IMG/VR virus record: IMGVR_UViG_3300042731_010163
Coordinates: 1 to 29,227 of that record
Length of the DNA stretch: 29,227 nt
Source: a virus
Reading direction: 5' to 3' (one strand)
The position numbers were made by a program, and so were the translations under genes. A model generated the notes under the pieces. That model searched no databases, was not told where the DNA came from, and worked only from the letters and a program-made list of their open reading frames with translations. Positions 3,664 to 29,137 of the stretch are shown here, piece by piece. Each line of letters starts with the position of its first letter. Within the stretch, counting starts at the first letter, position 1.

Positions 3664-6315
3664 ATGGCCAACTATAATGCTACAACAGATATGACACTTG
3701 AAGCAGCAATTGCTGCTGGTCCTATGACTAATGGCGATAATCTTACGATTAGTAATAATGCTATTGTAACGTGTACTCAAACACCTAGTATATTAATGGG
3801 TAGAGTTATAGGTGATAGTGGCGAGTTATTTTTAGATGGTAAGAATATTTCTAGTGGTAATTTAATAAATTTTTGTGGAGAATATCAAGAAGCAATTTAT
3901 CTTTATTTTAAAGGCAAATTGAGAGTTGATGGAGATTGGTATTCAATAGGTACTACAAATGGTACAGACAGTCAGACTTTTAATCTTGCTTCATATTGGG
4001 GAGGTAGTCTTGAGGATTTAATACCTGCTATATGGGTTGAAACTGGAAGAAGAATAGATTTTGATAATGATTCAGGAGAGACACCAGAAATAGGAGATTG
4101 GCTTTACAAGACTTCTGATGATTTAGTTATGGGAAGGATTGTAGAGGTACAATCTACTTATGTTGTGGTAAAATTTTTAACAGGAAGCCTTGCTGATAAT
4201 GATGGAATAGAGATAAGAAAAATAGTTGATAATGAAGGTCCAGATTATCAAGTTTCGTGGACTGCTCAAGTTGCAAATGCAAGTGGTGATATAAAAGAGT
4301 CAGGAGTATATCAAGAATTTGCTAATGTTATTGCGAATAGTACAAGTTATATAAGTACATTTAATCATCATTTGGGAGGGTTTGTTTTCGAACATACTTT
4401 TCAATCTAATACATTAACGATGGGTTCTAGTGTTGGGGGTGGATTTGTTCCTCCCAGTGGATGTGATGTAAAGGTACCAAACGTACATTTTTCTACATCA
4501 GATATTGCAAATTATACAAGTGGAAATACTTATCAAGATGGGAGTAATTTCGAAAATAACAGATATGAAATAATCATGTCAGGAGCTGGAAAGGTTGAAT
4601 TGAGTATTTGTAATATTGGCAGTTCTTTTTTTGGTACTTCTGGTGCTTATTATTACTATGCTGATTATGTTGGGGCATCTGTATCTTTAGGTTCTGCTGC
4701 GTGTTTACAAAAATCCATATATAATAATTGTGTTGTAATAAATGATCCGTTTGCATTGGCGTCAAATTCAAATTCCGCAATAGGCGTTGTTGATTGCGGT
4801 AATGGTGCTGATATAATAGATTGTTTAGCTGTACAAGCATATGCTTATTGGATGTACCTTGGAGCAAATACTTCATCTAATATATTAATAAAGAATTGTA
4901 TTTCCGTATTGGGCGGAAATGCTTATGGAGCGAATACGTATTTATTTTGTTATTACGCTGGAAGGTGTGAAAATTTTACTATAGATAATTGCGTTGGAAT
5001 ATCTGCAGATATACATTCTAATGCTAAGGTTTTAGTTCTTAGAGATACGAATGATGCCACGGTAACAAATATTATTGCTGCGTCTTCCCAAGATTACCAA
5101 AATCCCACTTTAACAACTAACGCAATCGCAATGGAAAACGCTAAAGACGTATATTTGTGTGGTTGGAAAACATTGGGACCAGCAGGTTATAGAGTATTTT
5201 ATTTCACCGATTGTAATAGAATAAAATTTAGGTGTTTAGGAAGAATAGACTCTCCTGATGATATGAATAATAAAAGTCGGGAATTATTTACTCTTGTAGG
5301 AAGTTGTGTTGACATAGATATATCTAGGATATGGGCTGAAAATTCTAATTATAATTTTTCAGCCCCTCTTCCAACAACAGCAATAGGAACTTTGATTGGT
5401 AATTGTAGTTACGATTATGACCAAACATTCGATATTGCTGGGGTGGATACGGTTGTAAAAGGTTTACATGCGGGTTCTGGAAGCATTGGAGCGCCAGGCG
5501 GCATAAACGCATCTTATCCTGGCGATATTGGTGTACAAATTCACGATGGATTTAAATCTGATACATCGGGATTTATTGTTTGTGCATTAATACCACCTTC
5601 TGATGATAATAATTATATAACTATAGTTAGTGGTAATCCCGAATTCAATGGTGATGGTTCTTTGAATATGTCCAATGGAGATGTGATAGAAGTAGAACAA
5701 AGTTATTTTTCAAAAGGCCATATTTCGTTTACCGGTAATATAACATCCATGTTAGGTTCAGGAGCTATTTCTTGGGGAACAGATGAATGGACGGACGTTA
5801 CAGTAGAATTTCAATACGACACAGGAAGCGGTTGGAGTGGAAGTTGGTTGAATGCAAGAACAGTAGGCAATTGGACCGGAATAAGCGGCATTTCAAGCGG
5901 AATAAAATTGAAATATAGATTTACTGCTACGAATGACGTAACGGATATGTTTCTGTTTATCACAGAAACTACTACTAGTATTGCCGTACAAGAAGCTAAT
6001 TTATATTCTATTGACCAGACAGTAGTTGATTTGACAATAACGGTTGTTGATAAGAATCAAGACCCAATAAGTGGTGTACAAACTGCTATTTTTAGACAGG
6101 ATAATGGTCAGCAGTTAATGAATAAAGATACCAATGTATTAGGTGTTGCAACCGAAGAATTTGTGTATTCATCAGATATTGCGATAATAATTAGATGCAG
6201 AAAATCAGAAGATATAGATGACCCTAGATATAAGCCATTTAGTACTACTGGTACAATTAGGTCTACTGGTTTTGATTTAAAAGTGACAATTCAAGAAAGT
6301 CTTGTCCTGAATTAG
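3664..6315 (+). CDS. Large beta-rich appendage / fibre-like virion protein
   Basis: The product is 883 residues. It opens with a short beta segment in which 'GDNLTISNNAIVT' recalls parallel beta-helix rungs. A region near 135-180 has the GDW...GRIVEV...LADNDGIEI pattern also seen in other proteins here. A long central part (about 270-600) is rich in Asn, Gly, Ile and short repeated strands, typical of right-handed beta-helix fibres. The last ~110 residues (VVDLTITVVDKNQDPISGV...) resemble an Ig-like or carboxypeptidase-regulatory-like fold. No catalytic motif is evident. The start has no good ribosome site and follows the upstream stop by two bases, suggesting coupling. From about 4.7 to 6.0 kb it uses more C- and G-ending codons than its neighbours. 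It may be a neck, collar or side fibre. Confidence 0.6.
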   Translation: MANYNATTDMTLEAAIAAGPMTNGDNLTISNNAIVTCTQTPSILMGRVIGDSGELFLDGKNISSGNLINFCGEYQEAIYLYFKGKLRVDGDWYSIGTTNGTDSQTFNLASYWGGSLEDLIPAIWVETGRRIDFDNDSGETPEIGDWLYKTSDDLVMGRIVEVQSTYVVVKFLTGSLADNDGIEIRKIVDNEGPDYQVSWTAQVANASGDIKESGVYQEFANVIANSTSYISTFNHHLGGFVFEHTFQSNTLTMGSSVGGGFVPPSGCDVKVPNVHFSTSDIANYTSGNTYQDGSNFENNRYEIIMSGAGKVELSICNIGSSFFGTSGAYYYYADYVGASVSLGSAACLQKSIYNNCVVINDPFALASNSNSAIGVVDCGNGADIIDCLAVQAYAYWMYLGANTSSNILIKNCISVLGGNAYGANTYLFCYYAGRCENFTIDNCVGISADIHSNAKVLVLRDTNDATVTNIIAASSQDYQNPTLTTNAIAMENAKDVYLCGWKTLGPAGYRVFYFTDCNRIKFRCLGRIDSPDDMNNKSRELFTLVGSCVDIDISRIWAENSNYNFSAPLPTTAIGTLIGNCSYDYDQTFDIAGVDTVVKGLHAGSGSIGAPGGINASYPGDIGVQIHDGFKSDTSGFIVCALIPPSDDNNYITIVSGNPEFNGDGSLNMSNGDVIEVEQSYFSKGHISFTGNITSMLGSGAISWGTDEWTDVTVEFQYDTGSGWSGSWLNARTVGNWTGISGISSGIKLKYRFTATNDVTDMFLFITETTTSIAVQEANLYSIDQTVVDLTITVVDKNQDPISGVQTAIFRQDNGQQLMNKDTNVLGVATEEFVYSSDIAIIIRCRKSEDIDDPRYKPFSTTGTIRSTGFDLKVTIQESLVLN

Positions 6316-6324
6316 GAGACATAT

Positions 6325-8796
6325 ATGAGTAATACAATTTTGTCAGGTGATTTAACAATTTATTATTTGTCTGAAAATAGAAGAAAACAGATTACATGGA
6401 GTGGTGGTAGTACTAAAGCAGATACACAGAAGATGATTGATATTTATTCTGCGATGCAGGATTTATTTTCTTCTGCTCCTCAAATGGATGATGGGGTTAT
6501 TTTTTCAGCTGAAACACCTGGTGAATATACAATTGGTAAAATTGATGCTGCAGATGCTGAGCCATGGTTTATAGATTTGAGAACTATGCAGCATATAATA
6601 GGTGATTATGAGAATTTTACTGGATGTGCTTTAAAGACATCAGGATGGAAAAGAATAGTTGATAGTAATACTGGTATAGTTGTTGTTCCTGTTACAAATG
6701 CTAGTAATAATATAGTATTAGGTGATGTTGGAAATGCAATAACTCATACAGATGGAGATGCTGGTATATTATTAGATGTTGTTGTTCCAGGTGGTACAAC
6801 AGATTATTTGTTTGTAAGACCTGATTCTAGCGCTGCTGCGAATAATTTTGACAGTAGTAGTGGAACTTTGACTTGTAATGCACATACAGCAACTCAATCG
6901 GCGGTTTCTGTTACAGGAGAGATGATTTGGGGAAATGTATATACGCAGGGTGGAATTTTATCTGATACTCATATTTACCTTTATCAAAATGGTGAGCGTG
7001 TTACATCTTTTGATCAGACAAATCAAGATTGGTGGGAAGATGGTCATTTGGATAGAGCTATTCCCATAACAGATTATACTACAGATAATTTTCCAGTTAT
7101 AGATAGTGGTTATTTGACGGTTTATGCTAGATGTTACACAAGTGGATATTCATTTGTTGAAATTAGAATGAATACAACTTCAGGAGGTAATGTTTCTGCT
7201 CCATTGTCTTCTAGCACAGATTCTAATAATTCTACTGGATATGCAAGTATTACTCTTTCTGGAGGGTCTGGTAATTGGAATATTGGAGATGAAATTTCAG
7301 GAGATACATCAGGTGCAAGAGGTATAATAACTCTTGTTTCAGGTACTAATCCTACCCCAACGTTGCATTTTTATTATGTAGGAGACCCATTTATAGCCTT
7401 TAATGGGTCTGAAGCAATTACAAATGAGGATGATACTGGTGCAGCAACTGGGTCTGGATCTGTTGCTAATCAAGGTCCAGCATTAACCACTTGGTTTGAT
7501 GGAAATGTTTTACCAACAGTTGCTTTTACTGCGGTTACAGCCGATATTGATGATGATGGTTCAGATGAGCCATATAGTATAACATGGGATTTAAATCAAG
7601 CAAGTTTAGCTCAATTTTATGAGTATATGAAATATGTATGCAGAAGAGGTTCCACATATAATTTGGATGATCTTGATGGTCAAGAGTATATTGGTGTCAC
7701 ATATAGAGTAAATTATACTGGAACAGTTACAGGTACTGTAGACGAAGGGGATTCAGTAACTGGAGTTACTTCTGGTGCTATTGGTTTAGTTCTATCTCAT
7801 GATACAACTAATAAGGTTATACTTCTTAGAAATACAAGGGGTACTTTTATAGATGGAGAGCAAATTCAGGTTGATGTAGGTAATTATATACCAGCAAGTG
7901 GAACTACTGTTTCAACAATTACTCCTATTTCTGAATGTCCGTTTGGAACATTAGCTGGTGGTATTTTCTTTGGGTCTGTTGGGGTTTTAATTTCTGATTA
8001 TAAAAGTTCAGAAGAGAATTATTTTCAGCTAAAAGATTCAAATGGAGTAACTAGATCAAGGCCAACTTCTACATCTATGACTGTTTCGAATGTTGCACCA
8101 TATGATTGGGTTGGAGTTTACAGGTTGTTATCTCAAGGTGGAAATATAAACAAAACAGAGTATTCCGCTGCTGGAGGGGAAACACCTGGTGATAGTACAT
8201 TAGATGTGAGTGGGTCTGTAACCGTTGATACTCCAGGGAAAACAGCTGGAGGAAGATTGGTTCTTATTGATGCTAGTGAAAATAATGCTGAATATATATT
8301 AAGATATTCTTCTTGGTCTGGTTCGCAATTTATTTTGGCAAATTTTGCTGATACAGCAGAAGCAGGGACCAATTCAACAACGATTGTTGCTGTTGGTGCA
8401 TTTTCATCTTCTGAAGTTGGAGACTTGATTTATAATGTTACTAGAGACGAAGTATCTTATATATCAGAGGTTACAAGTAATGATGAAGTTCAACTTGACC
8501 CAAATTATCCAATAGTTGGACAGACTACTGGAGATTCATTTGAGGTTAATGCTGTTCCTATAACGGTTACATCTAGTGATTATATATTTGTTCCTATTAT
8601 TTTAACGTTTGTTACATCTGGTACAACAGTAAGTGCTTCGATGGTTTTTGTTTCTCCTATTTATGGAAGAACAAGAGTTAGAAATACATCTGGTGCATCA
8701 GTTAAAATTGAGCCATTTACATCAGAGGTAACGATTCCTGCTACTGGTGGTGAAACTGTTGCTGTTAGGAATCCTGATACGGTTTATAATGGATAA
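6325..8796 (+). CDS. Large virion structural / fibre-like protein
   Basis: The product is 823 residues, with AGGAG about eight bases before the ATG. The N-terminal ~110 residues form a compact domain whose order (LTIYYLSENRRKQITW ... MIDIYSAMQDLF ... TPGEYTIGKID ... PWFIDLRTMQHIIG) recalls the N-terminal domain of the smaller protein at 9.46 kb. The rest is a Ser/Thr/Gly-rich beta protein. It contains two copies of a 'GDxxxGxTSGAxGxV' module near residues 317-335 and 471-490, and C-terminal strands ending in IPATGGETVAVRN. The composition suits an elongated trimeric appendage. No enzyme motif is seen. It may interact with the preceding large gene product. Confidence 0.55.
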   Translation: MSNTILSGDLTIYYLSENRRKQITWSGGSTKADTQKMIDIYSAMQDLFSSAPQMDDGVIFSAETPGEYTIGKIDAADAEPWFIDLRTMQHIIGDYENFTGCALKTSGWKRIVDSNTGIVVVPVTNASNNIVLGDVGNAITHTDGDAGILLDVVVPGGTTDYLFVRPDSSAAANNFDSSSGTLTCNAHTATQSAVSVTGEMIWGNVYTQGGILSDTHIYLYQNGERVTSFDQTNQDWWEDGHLDRAIPITDYTTDNFPVIDSGYLTVYARCYTSGYSFVEIRMNTTSGGNVSAPLSSSTDSNNSTGYASITLSGGSGNWNIGDEISGDTSGARGIITLVSGTNPTPTLHFYYVGDPFIAFNGSEAITNEDDTGAATGSGSVANQGPALTTWFDGNVLPTVAFTAVTADIDDDGSDEPYSITWDLNQASLAQFYEYMKYVCRRGSTYNLDDLDGQEYIGVTYRVNYTGTVTGTVDEGDSVTGVTSGAIGLVLSHDTTNKVILLRNTRGTFIDGEQIQVDVGNYIPASGTTVSTITPISECPFGTLAGGIFFGSVGVLISDYKSSEENYFQLKDSNGVTRSRPTSTSMTVSNVAPYDWVGVYRLLSQGGNINKTEYSAAGGETPGDSTLDVSGSVTVDTPGKTAGGRLVLIDASENNAEYILRYSSWSGSQFILANFADTAEAGTNSTTIVAVGAFSSSEVGDLIYNVTRDEVSYISEVTSNDEVQLDPNYPIVGQTTGDSFEVNAVPITVTSSDYIFVPIILTFVTSGTTVSASMVFVSPIYGRTRVRNTSGASVKIEPFTSEVTIPATGGETVAVRNPDTVYNG

Positions 8797-20805: not shown

Positions 20806-21096
20806 ATGTGTAAAAAGAAGACTGTAAATGTTGTGAATTCTGATGATTTGAGGAAGAAAGTTTCTGATGTTGAGATATTTGGTAATCCAGATACTTTTCA
20901 GTTAATTTGTAAGGCAAGTTCCAAAAATGAAGGATGGATGAAGTCAACAAAGGCTATGGAGATTCCCGGAAGAGGATGTATAATACAAGTTTCTACACAG
21001 CAAGGTGATAATGTTGCAGAAGCTATTTGTTTTGTTCCAGATGTTGTTATTTTAGTTGATGATGAAAGTGGAAATAAAAAGATAGTAAAAGGGTAA
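20806..21096 (+). CDS. Conserved-looking small phage protein (MCKKK type)
   Basis: The start is put at the ATG at 20806, nine bases after GAGG; the earlier in-frame ATG at 20797 directly abuts that ribosome site. The product is 96 residues: 'KTVNVVNSDDLRKKVSDVEI', 'FQLICKASSKNEGWMKSTKA', 'GRGCIIQVSTQQGDNVAEAI', then a strand-rich end. The regular beta pattern and the balanced composition look like a well-conserved small phage family that I recall only as hypothetical proteins. Cys are present at residues 2, about 45 and others, but no zinc pair is certain. It is the last forward gene before the reverse-strand insert. Confidence 0.6.
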   Translation: MCKKKTVNVVNSDDLRKKVSDVEIFGNPDTFQLICKASSKNEGWMKSTKAMEIPGRGCIIQVSTQQGDNVAEAICFVPDVVILVDDESGNKKIVKG

Positions 21097-21101
21097 TAAT
21101 T

Positions 21102-21119
21102 GTGTTTTATGTCAAACAC
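21102..21119. terminator. Weak bidirectional hairpin between convergent genes
   Basis: GTGTTT (21102-21107) and AAACAC (21114-21119) form a 6-bp inverted repeat with a 6-base loop, six bases past the forward stop and overlapping the reverse gene's stop. Flanks are AT-rich (TTATT on one side, AATTATT on the other). It could stop transcription from both sides, but the stem is AT-rich and the T-runs are short. Confidence 0.3.
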
Positions 21120-21457
21120 TTATTGATCCATTCAGTAATGAGAGCATCATAGATTTCACAGACATCGCATGGTTTAGTAAGAATATGTATATTGGGCATA
21201 TCATATTTGAGTGTATAGTTTGCTGTATATATTACGAATGGTATTGTTGAATGTTGAACTATTTTTAGTCCGTCTGATTTGTTTGGGCAATCCCAATCGC
21301 TAAGGATTATGTCAAAATTTCCGTCTTGAAGAGCTATTAGTCCATCATCACAGGAATGTTTGACTGTTATACTTTTCCAAGTATTTTTCATTACTCTGGA
21401 AAGCATACGAGTAATTTGTTCATCATCATCAATGATTAGTAAATTCAGGTTTTTCAT
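21107..21457 (-). CDS. Stand-alone CheY-like response-regulator receiver
   Basis: A 116-residue single receiver domain on the reverse strand. It begins 'MKNLNLLIIDDDEQITRMLS': D11 and D12 form the acidic Mg2+ pocket. D54 in 'FDIILSDWDCPNKSDG' is the phosphoacceptor, T78 ('VIYTAN') the conserved Thr/Ser and K95 ('ILTKPC') the conserved Lys. All residues for phosphorylation are therefore present. There is no output domain, so it would act by protein contact, as a decoy, or as a phosphate sink for a host histidine kinase. It is co-directional with the zinc-ribbon gene seven bases upstream and shares its promoter. Opposite strand and unrelated function mark it as accessory cargo in a tail module. 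Confidence 0.88.
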   Translation of the reverse strand: MKNLNLLIIDDDEQITRMLSRVMKNTWKSITVKHSCDDGLIALQDGNFDIILSDWDCPNKSDGLKIVQHSTIPFVIYTANYTLKYDMPNIHILTKPCDVCEIYDALITEWINKCLT

Positions 21458-21464
21458 TGTTTTT

Positions 21465-21674
21465 TTACCATACGGCTATTTGTTTTTTGCATGAATCACA
21501 ATGTTCAGTGTTTGATTTGGAGAGATGTGAATTCATAATAAAAATAGCAGTTCCTTCTTTTTCTAGTCGTTTAGCACATTCTGTACAATAGAGATAACCT
21601 CTGTTGTCGACTATTCCTGTAATTGTATTATTTGGGTCATTTTTTTGATAGATATAAATTTCTGAGGCTTTCAT
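21465..21674 (-). CDS. Small zinc-ribbon protein
   Basis: A 69-residue reverse-strand product. Its ATG has an AAGGA site eight bases upstream. Two Cys pairs, C30-x2-C33 and C59-x2-C62, are separated by 25 residues, consistent with one zinc ribbon. The N-terminal strand region contains a polar loop (KNDPNN). It is the first gene after the strong reverse promoter, immediately followed by the receiver gene, so the two are probably co-transcribed. It may bind a host protein or nucleic acid. No specific family is recognised. Confidence 0.7.
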   Translation of the reverse strand: MKASEIYIYQKNDPNNTITGIVDNRGYLYCTECAKRLEKEGTAIFIMNSHLSKSNTEHCDSCKKQIAVW

Positions 21675-21690
21675 TAGTTTGTTCCTTTCT

Positions 21691-21707
21691 GTCGAAATCT
21701 TATCGAC
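21691..21707. promoter_or_regulatory. Inverted repeat GTCGA-N7-TCGAC
   Basis: GTCGA at 21691-21695 and TCGAC at 21703-21707 flank seven AT-rich bases, between the reverse promoter and the ribosome site of the zinc-ribbon gene. It is placed as an operator would be, for repression of the reverse operon. Confidence 0.4.
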
Positions 21708-21835: not shown

Positions 21836-22015
21836 ATGCCAAGGTTGAATGTTGAAATAAAAAGTGGTGTATATAAGAGGTTTCTTGATCAATGTAAGGA
21901 GGATGGTAGAAGTGCTAGTGATGTTGTTAGAGAGTTGATTTTAGATTATGTGGAGAGAAGAGTTAGGGAAAAATTTAGGATTGCTAAAATAGAGAAAGAA
22001 GTTACAGATGAATGA
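21836..22015 (+). CDS. Ribbon-helix-helix DNA-binding protein
   Basis: A 59-residue gene with AGGAAGG seven bases before the ATG. 'PRLNVEIKSGVYKRF' supplies the N-terminal beta ribbon and first helix, and 'KEDGRSASDVVRELILDYVE' gives the turn and second helix, followed by a charged tail. This is the Arc/MetJ/CopG-type fold, which binds DNA as a dimer of ribbons, usually to repressor sites. It begins 161 bp from the divergent cargo operon and overlaps the next gene by eight bases. It is likely an autorepressor and possibly the controller of the reverse promoter; a link to the palindromes elsewhere in the window is possible but untested. Confidence 0.75.
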   Translation: MPRLNVEIKSGVYKRFLDQCKEDGRSASDVVRELILDYVERRVREKFRIAKIEKEVTDE

Positions 22016-22835
22016 GATGAATGATGAAAAGGTTATCGATGATAAAATTGTATTAGGTAAGACAAAAGGTCATGTTCTTGATATAGGGCCAGGTTGTATT
22101 ACTATTGAGTTGCCAGCAGGATATATTCATGAGGATGGAGAGCTTCACGTGCATGCTGTATTACGTGAGATGAAGGGACCAGAAGAAGAATTGTTGGCTA
22201 GTAAAGGTTCAATAGTTTCTAGATTGAATGTTATAATTGGGAATTGTTTAGAGCAAATAGGGTCTATTAGTGATAAGTCTTTATTAAGAAAAATAGCTTG
22301 TAATCTGATAGCTCAAGATAGAATGGCTATTCTTTTGGCTCTTCGTAGAATATCACTTGGTGATTTTTATGATTGTACAGTTACATGTCCAGAGTGTAAT
22401 GTGAGTCAGCATGTTACGGTAAATTTATCAGAAATTGAAATTTCACCAATGCCAAATAGGATGGAAAGAGAAATGGTTAATGTTCTTCCTAGTGGAAGAG
22501 AAGTAAAATGGCATGTGATAAGGATAGAAGATGAAGAATGGCTTACAGAGCAGCGTAAAAGAAAAAGAGATAAAGAACTTTTAACATTACATTTATTGTC
22601 TCGTGTTGATTCGATTGATGATATTGAAGTAGATAGAAAGAATAAGTATAAAGAAGCTATTGATTTGTTGATGGATTTACCGATAAGGGATAGAGCTACT
22701 TTGAGAGATCTTTTTGATAAAAAAGAAGATAATATAGATACGTTGGTGCAGTTTATGTGTGAGAGGTGTGGACATGAATGGGAAGGTAAGTTGGATGTTG
22801 GTCAGCCAAGTTTTTTCTTCCCATCGGTCAAATAG
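22008..22835 (+). CDS. gp26/gp51-like tail assembly protein, zinc-ribbon type
   Basis: The product is 275 residues. The N-terminal half carries a beta region ('IGPGCITIELPAGYIHEDGE') followed by helices. Two Cys pairs, C127-x2-C130 and C251-x2-C254 ('CPEC' and 'CERC'), look like two halves of one zinc site. The layout matches the T4 baseplate-assembly family (gp26/gp51). In this phage it sits just upstream of the tape measure, the place of a tail assembly chaperone. The stop lies 18 bases past a TTTTTTC heptamer, so a minority of ribosomes may continue into the -1 frame to give a longer form. An ATG nine bases further in is an alternative start. Confidence 0.65.
   Translation: MNEMNDEKVIDDKIVLGKTKGHVLDIGPGCITIELPAGYIHEDGELHVHAVLREMKGPEEELLASKGSIVSRLNVIIGNCLEQIGSISDKSLLRKIACNLIAQDRMAILLALRRISLGDFYDCTVTCPECNVSQHVTVNLSEIEISPMPNRMEREMVNVLPSGREVKWHVIRIEDEEWLTEQRKRKRDKELLTLHLLSRVDSIDDIEVDRKNKYKEAIDLLMDLPIRDRATLRDLFDKKEDNIDTLVQFMCERCGHEWEGKLDVGQPSFFFPSVK
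22811..22817 (+). other. Candidate -1 frameshift slippery site TTTTTTC
   Basis: The heptamer is in the right phase: reading-frame codons are ...AGT TTT TTC..., giving T-TTT-TTC (X-XXY-YYZ). After slippage the ribosome reads TTT TTT CTT CCC ATC and continues. The -1 frame is open from 22790 (last stop TAA at 22787-22789) to the TAA at 23015-23017. The normal stop TAG is only 16 bases after the heptamer, as is common for tail-chaperone shifts. Confidence 0.65.
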
Positions 22836-23042: not shown

Positions 23043-26000
23043 ATGAGTTTTCTTGGTATATCATTGGAGATGGCAGCTGTTGATGCTGGGATGAAGGATG
23101 GCATTATAAAGGCTGCAAAAGCACTTGATGATGTTAACAAAATGTTAATAGACCAGGATAGTGTTATCAAGAAAATCAAGAAAGAGAATTTTTTTGAAGA
23201 TACAGAAAAAAATGCCGGTAAAGCATCTAATAAAGTAGGTATTTTATCTAAGACATTTAAAGAGCTTGGCAATATTGGGTCAAAATCTGCAAATAAAATA
23301 AAATCATCTTTTGATAAAATAAGAAATTCTGTGATGCAATTTAATATTGCTGATATGGCATCAAATGTTAGAACATTAACTGGAGAGACTGGTAATCTTA
23401 CAAATAGTTTGGAAGCTACAATGGTGAGTATGCTTCAGTCTACTAAACCAGTTGCTGCATCATTGAATTTATCAGGAAAGGAGATGAGGAAGTTTGCAAG
23501 TCAAGCGGCAAGTATGGCCTATAGTATGAATACATCGGCTGATGCTGTTGCAGAGACAATGAGGTCAATTCATGTAGCTAATAAGGGAGCAACAGAGGCT
23601 ATGAATGAATTGGGATTGTCTACAAAAGATTGGGTAAAAGTTGTTCAAACAACTAACGTTCCTATGTCTGAATATACAGCTATTCTTGGTGATATGACAA
23701 CAAGTTGGCAAGCTTCACCAAAAGAGGCCGCTAATATGATTGACAGCCTTATGGCAATAGGAAAGGCTGCTGGAACTGGAACTGGTGCTGTAAAGAATGC
23801 AAAAGTTCAGTTGGATGAATTAGGGGAAGTTTTTAAAACATTGCCTCCTTCTATGGCAAGAACTTCTGACGAGATAATGAGTTTAATGCAATCATCAGCT
23901 AGAATGTCTGGTGTATTTAGAGAGATGGGAGATACGCAAGAAGAAGCTATAACAAAGGCAAATACTGTAGCAAGAATGTTTGCTGAACAGGATGTAGCTA
24001 TTAGAAAAGCTTTAAATATTGGTGATGACCGTGCTCTTATGGATAATCCATTGCTTAAGTATCTTATGAGACTTGGTATTGGATTTGATTCGGCCAGAAA
24101 GATTATTGAAACTGGTAGTCGTGATGTAGTTGCTGGTATGAAGATGGTTAATAATGTTTATGCACGTTTTGGAACTGATGTGTCTCCACAAGTTCAAAGA
24201 GCTTTATCTGGATTAAGTGGTGCTCTTGGGGAAGGAGCTGCTGGATTATCATATTTGGCGACTAATACAAAACAAGGAACTGCTGCATTAGATAAAATGG
24301 CAAAAATGGCTGTTGATGGGTCTGGTGCATTAAAGAAATTTGGAAAAGATGCATATAGTTCCGGGTTAACCTTACAAGAAACATATGATAGAGCAAAAGA
24401 GTCATTTGATACAACTGTTAGAAGTATAGCTAGACAAAATGTAAGAAATCTTGTTGGAAAACAAATTGCTGGTATGCGTGAAGCAGGAAAAGAAATAAAA
24501 GAACTTGGTTCTGATAAAACTTGGGGACCATGGGTAAATGCATTATCTCAATTTCGTCAGATGGGTATTAGTGGTGTATTTGCATCTATGGCTGAATATA
24601 CAGGGGTTGGTGCTAAAAACGCGGCAAAATTTGGATCTAAAATTGGATTAGTATTTGATACAGTTAGTCAGTTTGGAAGTGAACTTGCTCCAATAATGCA
24701 TATGTTGGGTATGGCAGGTCCTCTTGCTCCATTAATTGCTGCTGGAGGTATTGGTGCTTTATTATTTATGGATGATTCGTCTGTTAGACAAATTTTAGGT
24801 CCATTTTATAAAATTTTTAATGATTTAAAAAATAAGGCTGCAAAAATATGGGATTATTTTATAGGTATTTGGGATAATAAAGTTGTTCCTAGGATTAAAG
24901 TATTTTGGAAATATGATATGAAACCAGCAATGATTGATTTTTGGAATGAAGATTTTATTCCTTTTTTGAAAGAAAATATTCCTAAATTGGGGATGGCAAT
25001 ATGGGATGGAATTAAGTGGGCTTGGAATAAATTAGGAGAGATGACAGGAACTACTGGTCAGGCAGGTGTTATAGGTGGAGCTATGTTGGCTGGTTTTGGA
25101 CCAGGAATGGTCGGAGCTGGTACTCAAGCTGGAATAGCTTTTTTGAAAGCTGTTGCATCTCATCCAACTGCTGCTGGTGCTACAGGTCTTGCTGGTTTAG
25201 CTGCTTATGCTGGGTGGAAAATGGCAGAGTCTATTTTTGGGCCAAAATCTGTTAGTAATGCAATAGCTGAAGCTGAGGTAATAGCTGGTGGAAGTGCTGA
25301 TAAATTTGGAATGTATAAGTTGGCATGGCAGCGTAAACCGGAAGAGATGGCAGGTCAATTGGGCAGATTAAGAGCTGCTCTTAAAGCGGAAAAGGAAAGT
25401 TGGTTTCCTGATAGTGATGATGTTAAAATTCTTGAAAAAGCTATATCTTTATTAACAGATGCCCAAAGTGAGCTTATTCTTGATAAGACGGAATCGAATG
25501 TTGAAAAATATACTTTGGGTGGAAAGACGACAGCAGAGCAATTTATAAATGGTCTAACATCAGGATTAGAAGAAGGTAGGCAATCTGTTGATGATGGTCT
25601 TGATTTTATAGCAGATGGAATGATAGCACATTCTCCAATAAAATCTGGTCCTCTTGCTGGTGAAGGAGAGTCTAACGCTGCATATCGTGGTGGATATTTT
25701 ACGATGGAACAGTTTGCTTTAGGTATTACAGATAGTACTGATATTATTAGGAGAGCAATTGAAACAACTCTTAATGATTCTGTTATACTTACTATAGATA
25801 CATATGCTGCTAAAATGAGAGACCTTGCTAAACAAAAGATGTTTTTGGCATCTGTTGCTAAAGCAATGGTAAAAGATTTAGGTGGAAATATAGAAACATC
25901 TATTGATTCCGAATCTGATATAAATGTGAAAAAGAATTTTGAAGCTGCTATGAATTTACCTGGTCTTGCTAGTGTTGTTTTGGCTGTTTCAAATGAAGGT

Positions 26001-26117
26001 GCTCAAACAAGGAAATTATTAAAACGTATTTTAGAAGAAAATATACGTCAAACTAGTGTAATGAGTGGTGGTGTGAGTATTCCTGTGACAGGAACTACTA
26101 CTCCACCACCAAGTTGA
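23043..26117 (+). CDS. Tail tape measure protein
   Basis: The product is 1024 residues. The tape measure sets tail length and is ejected or relocated during injection. It shows the usual order: a charged coiled N-terminal region (about 20-90), a Met/Ala/Ser-rich helical middle with many 'MSGVF', 'GTGTGA' and 'AKAL' stretches, hydrophobic segments near 553-580 and 670-725 (possible membrane-active parts), and a C-terminal 'HSPIKSGPLAG' segment near 862-875, typical of tape measures. No lysozyme or peptidase motif is visible. At the usual rough rule of 0.15 nm per residue, the tail would be about 150 nm. GAGG lies before the ATG. Confidence 0.9.
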   Translation: MSFLGISLEMAAVDAGMKDGIIKAAKALDDVNKMLIDQDSVIKKIKKENFFEDTEKNAGKASNKVGILSKTFKELGNIGSKSANKIKSSFDKIRNSVMQFNIADMASNVRTLTGETGNLTNSLEATMVSMLQSTKPVAASLNLSGKEMRKFASQAASMAYSMNTSADAVAETMRSIHVANKGATEAMNELGLSTKDWVKVVQTTNVPMSEYTAILGDMTTSWQASPKEAANMIDSLMAIGKAAGTGTGAVKNAKVQLDELGEVFKTLPPSMARTSDEIMSLMQSSARMSGVFREMGDTQEEAITKANTVARMFAEQDVAIRKALNIGDDRALMDNPLLKYLMRLGIGFDSARKIIETGSRDVVAGMKMVNNVYARFGTDVSPQVQRALSGLSGALGEGAAGLSYLATNTKQGTAALDKMAKMAVDGSGALKKFGKDAYSSGLTLQETYDRAKESFDTTVRSIARQNVRNLVGKQIAGMREAGKEIKELGSDKTWGPWVNALSQFRQMGISGVFASMAEYTGVGAKNAAKFGSKIGLVFDTVSQFGSELAPIMHMLGMAGPLAPLIAAGGIGALLFMDDSSVRQILGPFYKIFNDLKNKAAKIWDYFIGIWDNKVVPRIKVFWKYDMKPAMIDFWNEDFIPFLKENIPKLGMAIWDGIKWAWNKLGEMTGTTGQAGVIGGAMLAGFGPGMVGAGTQAGIAFLKAVASHPTAAGATGLAGLAAYAGWKMAESIFGPKSVSNAIAEAEVIAGGSADKFGMYKLAWQRKPEEMAGQLGRLRAALKAEKESWFPDSDDVKILEKAISLLTDAQSELILDKTESNVEKYTLGGKTTAEQFINGLTSGLEEGRQSVDDGLDFIADGMIAHSPIKSGPLAGEGESNAAYRGGYFTMEQFALGITDSTDIIRRAIETTLNDSVILTIDTYAAKMRDLAKQKMFLASVAKAMVKDLGGNIETSIDSESDINVKKNFEAAMNLPGLASVVLAVSNEGAQTRKLLKRILEENIRQTSVMSGGVSIPVTGTTTPPPS

Positions 26118-27840: not shown

Positions 27841-28787
27841 AATGGATTGAATGGCTTAGGGATTATCTTGCAGATGTTACGCATGGTCTAGAGAGGTTCT
27901 GCGGTAGATATTATGGTAGTTATTTGGGAAGGGTAATTGATATAGCAGACCCTGATAACAGGGGAAGGATAAGAGCTACATGTCCAGCTATAAATATGCC
28001 AAAGGCTGAAGATGTTCCAGGTGGATATTGGATATTACCATGTATGCCAGGATTAGGAGAGGATTCTGATGGAAAAATGACTGGTATATTTCATCCTCCT
28101 GAAGAAGGTTCTCTTGTGTGGCTTCAGTTTGAATTTGGTGACCCAAGAAAACCTTTATATATGGGAGGATTTTTAACAACTAGAAATACTTCAGATACAT
28201 TTTTTTCTGATGATGCTGAAAAAAAAGGGCCATCAAAGAGAGGTATAAGGACAAAAGCTGGTCATTTTTTAAGATTCAATGATGACCCAGATAAGTTGGA
28301 AATTACAATTGCTAGAGGAGATGGTGAAGGAGAGCCAACATCTCAATTCATAAGTATGACAACAGAAGGTCATACACTGATAACGAATAGTAATGGGTCT
28401 TCATTATATATGAATGCCGAAGATAATGAAACTACACTTCAGACATTGGATTCTAATGGAAATGTATTATCGATGCTTTTTCTAGGTGATGACAAGATTA
28501 CTTTGACTACAAAGTCAGGTGGTGCAATAGGTATAGATGGGAAAGATATTGTGTTAACAGGGGATAATGTTGTTGCAGATGCAAATAAACAATTTTCTGC
28601 AAATGCTGGTACTGTAATGCTTGGAAAAGGTGCATCTGAGCCAGCAATTAGGGGTAATAAGTTTGCTATTGGTTGGGGAATTATGCATCAGCATACTTCT
28701 ACTGCTCCAGGAAGCCCTACAACACCAGGTGCAACACCTCCTGTGATGCTTTATAGAGAATTAAGTGAGAATGTTTTTATATCATGA
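27837..28787 (+). CDS. Baseplate spike protein (gp5 / VgrG / gpV-like)
   Basis: The product is 316 residues and overlaps the hub stop by four bases. Residues 25-115 are the OB-fold: 'GRVIDIADPDNRGRIRATCP' ... 'GYWILPCMPGLG' ... 'GSLVWLQFEFGDPRKPLYMG'. Residues 138-150 (RTKAGHFLRFNDD) are the conserved turn leading into the beta-helix spike, which continues with Ser, Thr and Gly repeats to about 265. There is no lysozyme domain, unlike T4 gp5. The C-terminus has His-rich 'MHQHTS' and 'PGSPTTPGATP', perhaps the metal-binding tip. It punctures the outer cell envelope. Confidence 0.85.
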   Translation: MKWIEWLRDYLADVTHGLERFCGRYYGSYLGRVIDIADPDNRGRIRATCPAINMPKAEDVPGGYWILPCMPGLGEDSDGKMTGIFHPPEEGSLVWLQFEFGDPRKPLYMGGFLTTRNTSDTFFSDDAEKKGPSKRGIRTKAGHFLRFNDDPDKLEITIARGDGEGEPTSQFISMTTEGHTLITNSNGSSLYMNAEDNETTLQTLDSNGNVLSMLFLGDDKITLTTKSGGAIGIDGKDIVLTGDNVVADANKQFSANAGTVMLGKGASEPAIRGNKFAIGWGIMHQHTSTAPGSPTTPGATPPVMLYRELSENVFIS

Positions 28788-29137
28788 GTAAATGTAAAAT
28801 TGCATTATTACCTGTTCCTGGATTAGCGATACCTATTCCACAACCACCATTTAGTATGCCGTCAAGGCCAAAGATACCTGGGATTCCAAAGACTCCTAAT
28901 ATACCTGGAATAAGTATTGAGGTTAAAATTCCAAAGTTAGCGATACCTATACCGCAACCACCATTTAGTATGCCAGCAATACCTAAGATACCTAGGATTC
29001 CCGGTAAAGTACCTGGTATTGCGGTTAGGGATTTTTCTGTTAAATTGGCAGTTCCTATACCACAACCACCATTTAGTATGCCAGCAAGGCCAAAGATACC
29101 TAATGTTCCTAAATTGCCAAGATGTCCTTTGGATTAA
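28784..29137 (+). CDS. Proline-rich triple-repeat protein after the spike
   Basis: The product is 117 residues and overlaps the spike stop by four bases. It is built of three near-identical units, 'LAIPIPQPPFSMPxxPKIP', at residues 14-32, 52-70 and 88-106, separated by 'IP'-rich linkers. Pro and Ile dominate, and only two Cys are present. The repeats could form a polyproline helix or a spike-associated sleeve. The gene occupies the place where many contractile phages encode the PAAR or spike tip, but no PAAR motif is seen. Function is unknown. Confidence 0.65.
   Translation: MSKCKIALLPVPGLAIPIPQPPFSMPSRPKIPGIPKTPNIPGISIEVKIPKLAIPIPQPPFSMPAIPKIPRIPGKVPGIAVRDFSVKLAVPIPQPPFSMPARPKIPNVPKLPRCPLD
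28823..29101 (+). repeat. Three 57-bp coding repeats
   Basis: Copies at 28823-28879, 28937-28993 and 29045-29101 encode the same Pro-rich 19-residue unit with few changes. CAACCACCATTTAGTATGCC is identical in all three, suggesting recent duplication or strong constraint. Confidence 0.85.

Follow-up and report, generated by a model that had tools for sequence, protein, structure and literature searches.

What use would a phage have for a response regulator receiver with no output domain, and why would it carry the gene backward among its tail genes? These questions are raised by open reading frame 21107 to 21457 (minus strand) of a 29,227-base virus record, the whole of which is referred to here as the window. 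The window holds myovirus tail genes, with a tail sheath recognized through tblastn matches to many sheath proteins. The frame has an ATG start and encodes a 116-amino-acid protein. In the reading that we prefer, host kinases or Hpt proteins pass phosphate to this protein, which serves as a passive phosphoryl sink, decoy, or relay intermediate. We infer the phosphorylation, the partner, and the role, and we place the probability of this reading at about one half. The features on which the argument draws are as follows.

21107 to 21457, minus strand: stand-alone receiver, with D10/D11, D54, T78, K95-P96, Cys57 (position D+3), Ile92 (position K-3), and alpha4 at residues 83 to 86
21465 to 21674, minus strand: 69-amino-acid small protein with two CxxC pairs (zinc-ribbon-like; zinc-ribbon matches were subthreshold), first gene of the receiver operon
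21683 to 21688, minus strand: Shine-Dalgarno-like AAAGGA before the first cassette gene
21691 to 21707, minus strand: leader hairpin GTCGA-TAAGATT-TCGAC, with a stem that covaries in relatives and a conserved AAGAT loop
21718 to 21746, minus strand: sigma70-like promoter, with TTGACA (21746 to 21741), 16 to 17 bp, and TAATAT/AATATT
21836 to 22015, plus strand: ribbon-helix-helix (CopG/Arc-like) gene, divergent from and adjoining the cassette in every relative
22008 to 22835, plus strand: T4-type baseplate-family gene (domain match)
23043 to 26117, plus strand: tape measure gene

Identity of the receiver

The window protein is a genuine stand-alone receiver that carries every phosphorylation residue. 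Searched on its own against the Pfam Response_reg model, it scored 29.3 bits (E = 1e-6), just missing the curated cutoff of 30.2. That cutoff was exceeded by the homolog in a related record (L012), and the model matched nine of nine members of the receiver family described below (E values below 0.1). The family profile reached CheY in the Protein Data Bank (PDB) at 6.5e-11. AlphaFold2 predicts a receiver fold (pLDDT, 90.5; pTM, 0.86) in which the alternating beta/alpha arrangement is present and alpha4 is shortened, and the model matches CheY and other receivers in the PDB with TM scores of ~0.8. Fold and catalytic residues are the same as in CheY and Spo0F, at about 20% identity to CheY, whereas the CheY-type switch tyrosine is absent from the phage family. 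Because this tyrosine is missing and alpha4 is reduced, the CheY output face is not preserved in the phage receiver.

The initial annotation assigned the active site to D11/D12, D54, T78, and K95. The last three residues stand as placed, and the acidic pair moves to D10/D11 upon alignment to the DD pair of CheY. Its statement that no output domain follows holds as well: the frame stops, and the next gene converges on it at 10 bp.

A phage receiver family and its spread

Family members were collected by profile-guided scans of viral sequences and occur in three contexts, with identities that go down to 35%. The first context comprises the window and related myoviruses (L002, L003, L005, L006, and L012). 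The second is an unrelated phage lineage (L010, L011, L022, and L023) in which the receiver is followed by a gene of 88 to 97 amino acids (not called in L023) and then by an ATP-dependent DNA ligase gene; in L010, a terminase gene lies further along. The third is a phage represented by a 120-kb contig (L013). Among the cultured phages of INPHARED, a tblastn search with the window protein gave no match; queries with the L010 and L013 members returned bacterial-looking records, an unannotated record of 2.5 kb, and 57-kb "Acinetobacter phage" records carrying the annotation atoC.

In a receiver tree built with 57 cellular receivers, the eight phage sequences included come together as a single clade (support, 100/98). 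As the cellular receivers were drawn by pattern search, this clade denotes separation from the sampled cellular receivers and not from all receivers. Within the tree, members do not group by phage type; since forced grouping was not rejected (p = 0.31 and 0.13), transfer of the receiver between phage lineages is left unproven.

Scanning of cellular genome contigs retrieved generic receivers only, at about 23 to 39% identity and in most cases over the N-terminal half. No match at 1e-16 was obtained in 1,585 cellular genomes from five phyla, and in a sixth set of 297 genomes from the Acidobacteria (the phylum of L072), the best score was 51 bits, versus 160 to 183 bits in phage records. These cellular searches cover a sample, and in large genomes, the top candidates alone were scored. 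A traceable donor, which phylogeny had been expected to reveal, did not emerge, as no close cellular relative was found in the genomes sampled.

Other viral receivers lie at or beyond the edge of the family. Two more distant ones (L122, positions 4839 to 5312, and L119, positions 4980 to 5351) have a short alpha4 and an aliphatic K-3 residue and lack the cysteine at D+3; given these, the family may be broader than described here. Viral matches in L015 to L017, L120, and L121 are receivers that do not belong to the family. One of them, a separate 139-amino-acid receiver (L015, positions 5989 to 6408; also in L016 and L017), resides in other viral contigs, and receivers may have entered phages on more than one occasion.

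Retention of the active site and loss of the read-out

Across the family, the phosphorylation chemistry is retained. The acidic pair, the Asp, the Thr, and the Lys-Pro are kept in nine of nine aligned members, with position 10 being D or E in relatives and D11 invariant. Both D54 and K95, the residues whose fate in relatives had been proposed as a check, are among those kept in all nine. Conserved noncatalytic residues are M18, R21, W55, and C57.

The surroundings of the active site differ from those of cellular receivers. An aromatic residue at K-3, found in 86% of receivers and linked to Y-T coupling (J. Bacteriol. 2025 review, PMC12632262), is present in 41 of 46 cellular receivers and in 0 of 9 phage receivers, which have I or V instead. 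Position D+3 is Cys in all nine phage sequences and in none of the 46 cellular ones, where it is M or L without exception. An acid occupies D+2 in 9/9 phage versus 2/46 cellular receivers. The spacing from the Thr to the Lys is 14 to 17 residues in the phage family (21 in one member), as opposed to 22 in 41 of the 46 cellular receivers, and alpha4 in the AlphaFold2 model of the window protein amounts to one turn. These comparisons show that alpha4 and the K-3 aromatic, the elements of the standard allosteric read-out, are reduced or gone family-wide. With these elements, one read-out is lost; its place may be taken by an alpha1-alpha5 read-out or by a surface for a new partner.

Receivers in viruses as such are already known, as the structural matches attest. 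Novelty appears to lie in a separate phage-only family that spans at least three phage contexts and consistently lacks the read-out while its chemistry stays intact, and, in the window's group, in carriage by a promoter-tagged hot spot. An exact-phrase literature search for phage-encoded response regulators or histidine kinases found none; its coverage was partial, and it counts as weak evidence of novelty.

An accessory cassette with its own promoter

As first reported, the receiver gene is reversed inside the tail module, lying on the minus strand amid plus-strand tail genes. A two-gene operon on that strand, driven by a promoter of its own, contains the receiver gene in second place; the initial annotation does not mention this operon. 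At one end, the pair is convergent with a plus-strand gene that ends at 21096; at the other, it is divergent from the ribbon-helix-helix gene at 21836. The 69-amino-acid protein encoded by the first gene is 62 to 88% identical in two relatives. The ribbon-helix-helix gene, a possible local regulator, shares the orientation of the baseplate gene, and its product could silence the cassette promoter, which is divergent from it, at a late stage of infection.

The receiver occupies the same site in the same orientation, with homologous flanks, in L002 and L003 (near-identical phages), L005/L006, and L012; relative to the window, baseplate protein identity is 69% in L005/L006 and 55% in L012. The cargo varies, from two genes in the window to three in L003 and six in L006, and in L012, a 274-amino-acid frame precedes the receiver. 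Two further contigs (L089 and L090) have the same baseplate gene and reversed small genes at the same place, but the receiver is missing from this site, and neither contig gave any match in a Response_reg search. Part of the L089 cargo is a 140-amino-acid pentapeptide-repeat protein (positions 4889 to 5311, minus strand) with its own promoter and hairpin copy.

Comparison of the window with L003 gives a synonymous divergence of 0.12 to 0.16 in the cassette, as opposed to ~0.02 in the flanks (p = 2e-5 for counts of synonymous changes in cassette and flank), a pattern that suggests exchange of the cassette between close phages. The site between the tail genes is an accessory-gene hot spot, and the cassette has the traits of a moron: its own promoter, an independent orientation, and presence/absence or cargo change at one site. 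The odd orientation of the receiver is explained by its status as cargo at this hot spot and calls for no special meaning. Any benefit from the gene would be conditional, since the window phage has relatives that do without it.

The region upstream of the cassette has a fixed order: TTGACA (conserved in all six contigs compared), a -10-like hexamer ~17 bp on (TATAGT in L090), the hairpin, and an AAAGGA-type ribosome-binding site. The stem of the hairpin varies in sequence between copies. In an alignment of nine copies, 94% of cells pair versus 67% in shuffles, and the covariation score is 0.85 versus 0.33 in shuffles and 0.18 at most in slid versions; the loop reads AAGAT in most copies. Five contigs together contain 9 instances of an exact TTGACA followed by this kind of hairpin, compared to 0.25 expected from first-order Markov shuffles. 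Rfam had no match anywhere in the window, and a consensus scan found no terminator for the cassette. Since a sigma70-like promoter with a structured leader sits inside late genes, early transcription of the cassette by host RNA polymerase is probable, as judged from promoter shape.

Module copies also stand before other genes, at G010 67157, G001 2051, and G001 336 (all minus strand), the products of which have 305, 106, and 89 amino acids, respectively. Across the phage group, the promoter-hairpin module may mark accessory genes, and it offers a sequence tag for finding such genes in the window's relatives.

Comparison with known receivers and proposed function

A close functional parallel is found in the FATGUY receivers of alphaproteobacteria (MrrA, SdrG, Sma0114, and the receiver of CckA). 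As in the phage family, alpha4 is missing or short in these proteins and the phosphoacceptor site is intact; Sma0114 likewise lacks the K-3 aromatic. FATGUY receivers are phosphorelay intermediates (PMC9981736, PMC5964349), with MrrA taking phosphate from and passing it among many kinases (PMC5964349). Receiver-only relay proteins such as Sma0114, which lack alpha4 and the beta5 aromatic, have been argued not to depend on allosteric control of the alpha4-beta5-alpha5 face (Nat. Commun. 2023, PMC9981736). The FATGUY motif itself (F-x-[TS]-G-Y at beta4) is unmatched, as the phage proteins have V or I at the F position and T-G/A-N thereafter (T in L011). For this reason, we liken the phage family to FATGUY receivers in manner of working and do not file it among them. 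The phage family further differs in the Cys at D+3, the acid at D+2, and its occurrence in phages in which no kinase was found.

A search of ten phage records, several of which are fragments, gave no HATPase_c or Hpt domain, while positive controls matched; a kinase partner would therefore have to be the host's. With alpha4 and the K-3 aromatic reduced or gone, a passive sink, decoy, or relay appears the most likely role, and by analogy with the FATGUY relay receivers, whose intact chemistry without the usual read-out the family resembles, a sink or relay for host kinases would fit best. In the proposed mechanism, the receiver is delivered together with the second small protein as a two-gene cassette from an accessory hot spot amid the tail genes and would be transcribed early from the host-type sigma70 promoter. 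D54, set in a complete and conserved active site, would accept the phosphoryl group from host histidine kinases or Hpt proteins, and a receiver without the usual read-out would then drain or reroute host two-component signaling. The earlier suggestion of a phosphate sink or host kinase partner accordingly fits what was found (phosphoacceptor site kept, read-out lost, and no phage kinase or Hpt detected), with the mechanism stated here as a proposal; the targets named alongside it (motility, stress, or defense) are not supported.

Phages that interfere with host kinases are already on record. Pseudomonas phage LSL4 encodes PIT4, a small protein that binds several host histidine kinases and is not described as a receiver in the abstract of its report (PMC10714779). 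A further case is CDS-30 of Alteromonas phage V22, a marine myovirus; this gene for a receiver-like protein is annotated as CheY-like and classed as a signaling auxiliary gene (PMC7289586). A 149-amino-acid V22 protein (A0A6C0R1B8) is a structural match to the window receiver at 17% identity in the structural alignment; it was not returned by the tblastn search of the phage collection with the window protein.

A wider proposal can be built on the sink reading: that a phage-specific class of receivers, present in unrelated lytic-type phages, has evolved into phosphoryl sinks that lack an output and that, in the window's group, these are delivered by an early-promoter cassette that silences or reroutes host two-component signaling. 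We regard this as tentative and as distinctly less probable than the sink reading by itself. If true, a phage receiver that keeps its phosphate-accepting chemistry without a read-out would represent direct mimicry of host two-component signaling and would offer a naturally occurring tool with which to drain kinases. The question of whether passive relaying is the general rule among receivers without alpha4 would then also become testable.

Alternative explanations

The strongest competitor is a phospho-regulated adaptor, in which phosphorylation or its absence controls binding of one host protein through a surface other than alpha4-beta5-alpha5, on the model of CpdR with ClpX or CheY with FliM. 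Single-domain receivers often act through direct binding, and CpdR, which has a FATGUY-like motif, binds ClpX only when unphosphorylated (PMC9981736). The conserved M18, R21, W55, and C57 could mark such a partner surface. Against this, all members lack Y-T coupling and have a reduced version of the classic switch surface, and we consider an adaptor a possible but rather doubtful role.

A counter-defense factor, working either through phosphate chemistry or as a cyclic-phosphate-processing enzyme similar to cREC, is unlikely. Small accessory cassettes with variable cargo often carry counter-defense genes, and the receiver sits in just such a setting. The cREC domain (PF20274) of jumbo phages is likewise receiver derived and phage carried, and it has been proposed to process cyclic phosphates (PMC7824862). 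It is linked to NAD/ADP-ribose genes; none were recognized beside the phage receivers, among the neighbors listed and nine scanned with Pfam. We rejected the cREC assignment, as its Pfam model weakly matches one of nine members (0.077), in contrast to all nine for Response_reg, and as ordinary receivers come far ahead of viral cREC structures in the structural comparison. The sole PADLOC match was weak (0.0012) and uninformative.

That the gene is a passenger from a host, without selected function in the phage, would agree with its accessory position and its absence from relatives and is nevertheless very improbable. The window and L003 carry close alleles of the receiver, and of the 10 changes between them, 8 are synonymous (Ka/Ks = 0.058; p = 8e-5), which shows that the receiver is under purifying selection; for L022 and L023, the ratio is 0.28. 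All catalytic residues are, moreover, kept across deep divergence, and the members form the one tight phage-only clade described above relative to the sampled cellular receivers instead of scattered host copies. Last, a structural or regulatory part in the tail module, suggested by the location of the gene, which related phages share, between tail and baseplate genes, is largely refuted already and the least credible of all, given the opposite strand and separate promoter, the two relatives that pair the same flanking baseplate gene with other cargo, and the occurrence of the same family beside DNA ligase in unrelated phages.

Other elements of the window

A 14-bp perfect palindrome, CGAACTCGAGTTCG, occurs in six copies on the plus strand of the window (positions 1781, 11026, 13139, 19762, 23018, and 29141), compared to 0.02 expected. 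The copies mostly lie just 3' of a stop codon and just 5' of the next ribosome-binding site. Relatives contain the element with a variable center (7 copies in G004, 7 in G011, and 20 in G010). Although the palindrome resembles the Gram-positive LexA box, it may instead function as an RNA hairpin between cistrons or as an operator of the phage. Near the end of the window, positions 28784 to 29137 (plus strand) encode a 117-amino-acid protein composed of three proline-rich repeats (PIPQPPFSMP), in which the DNA contains a 65-nucleotide direct repeat.
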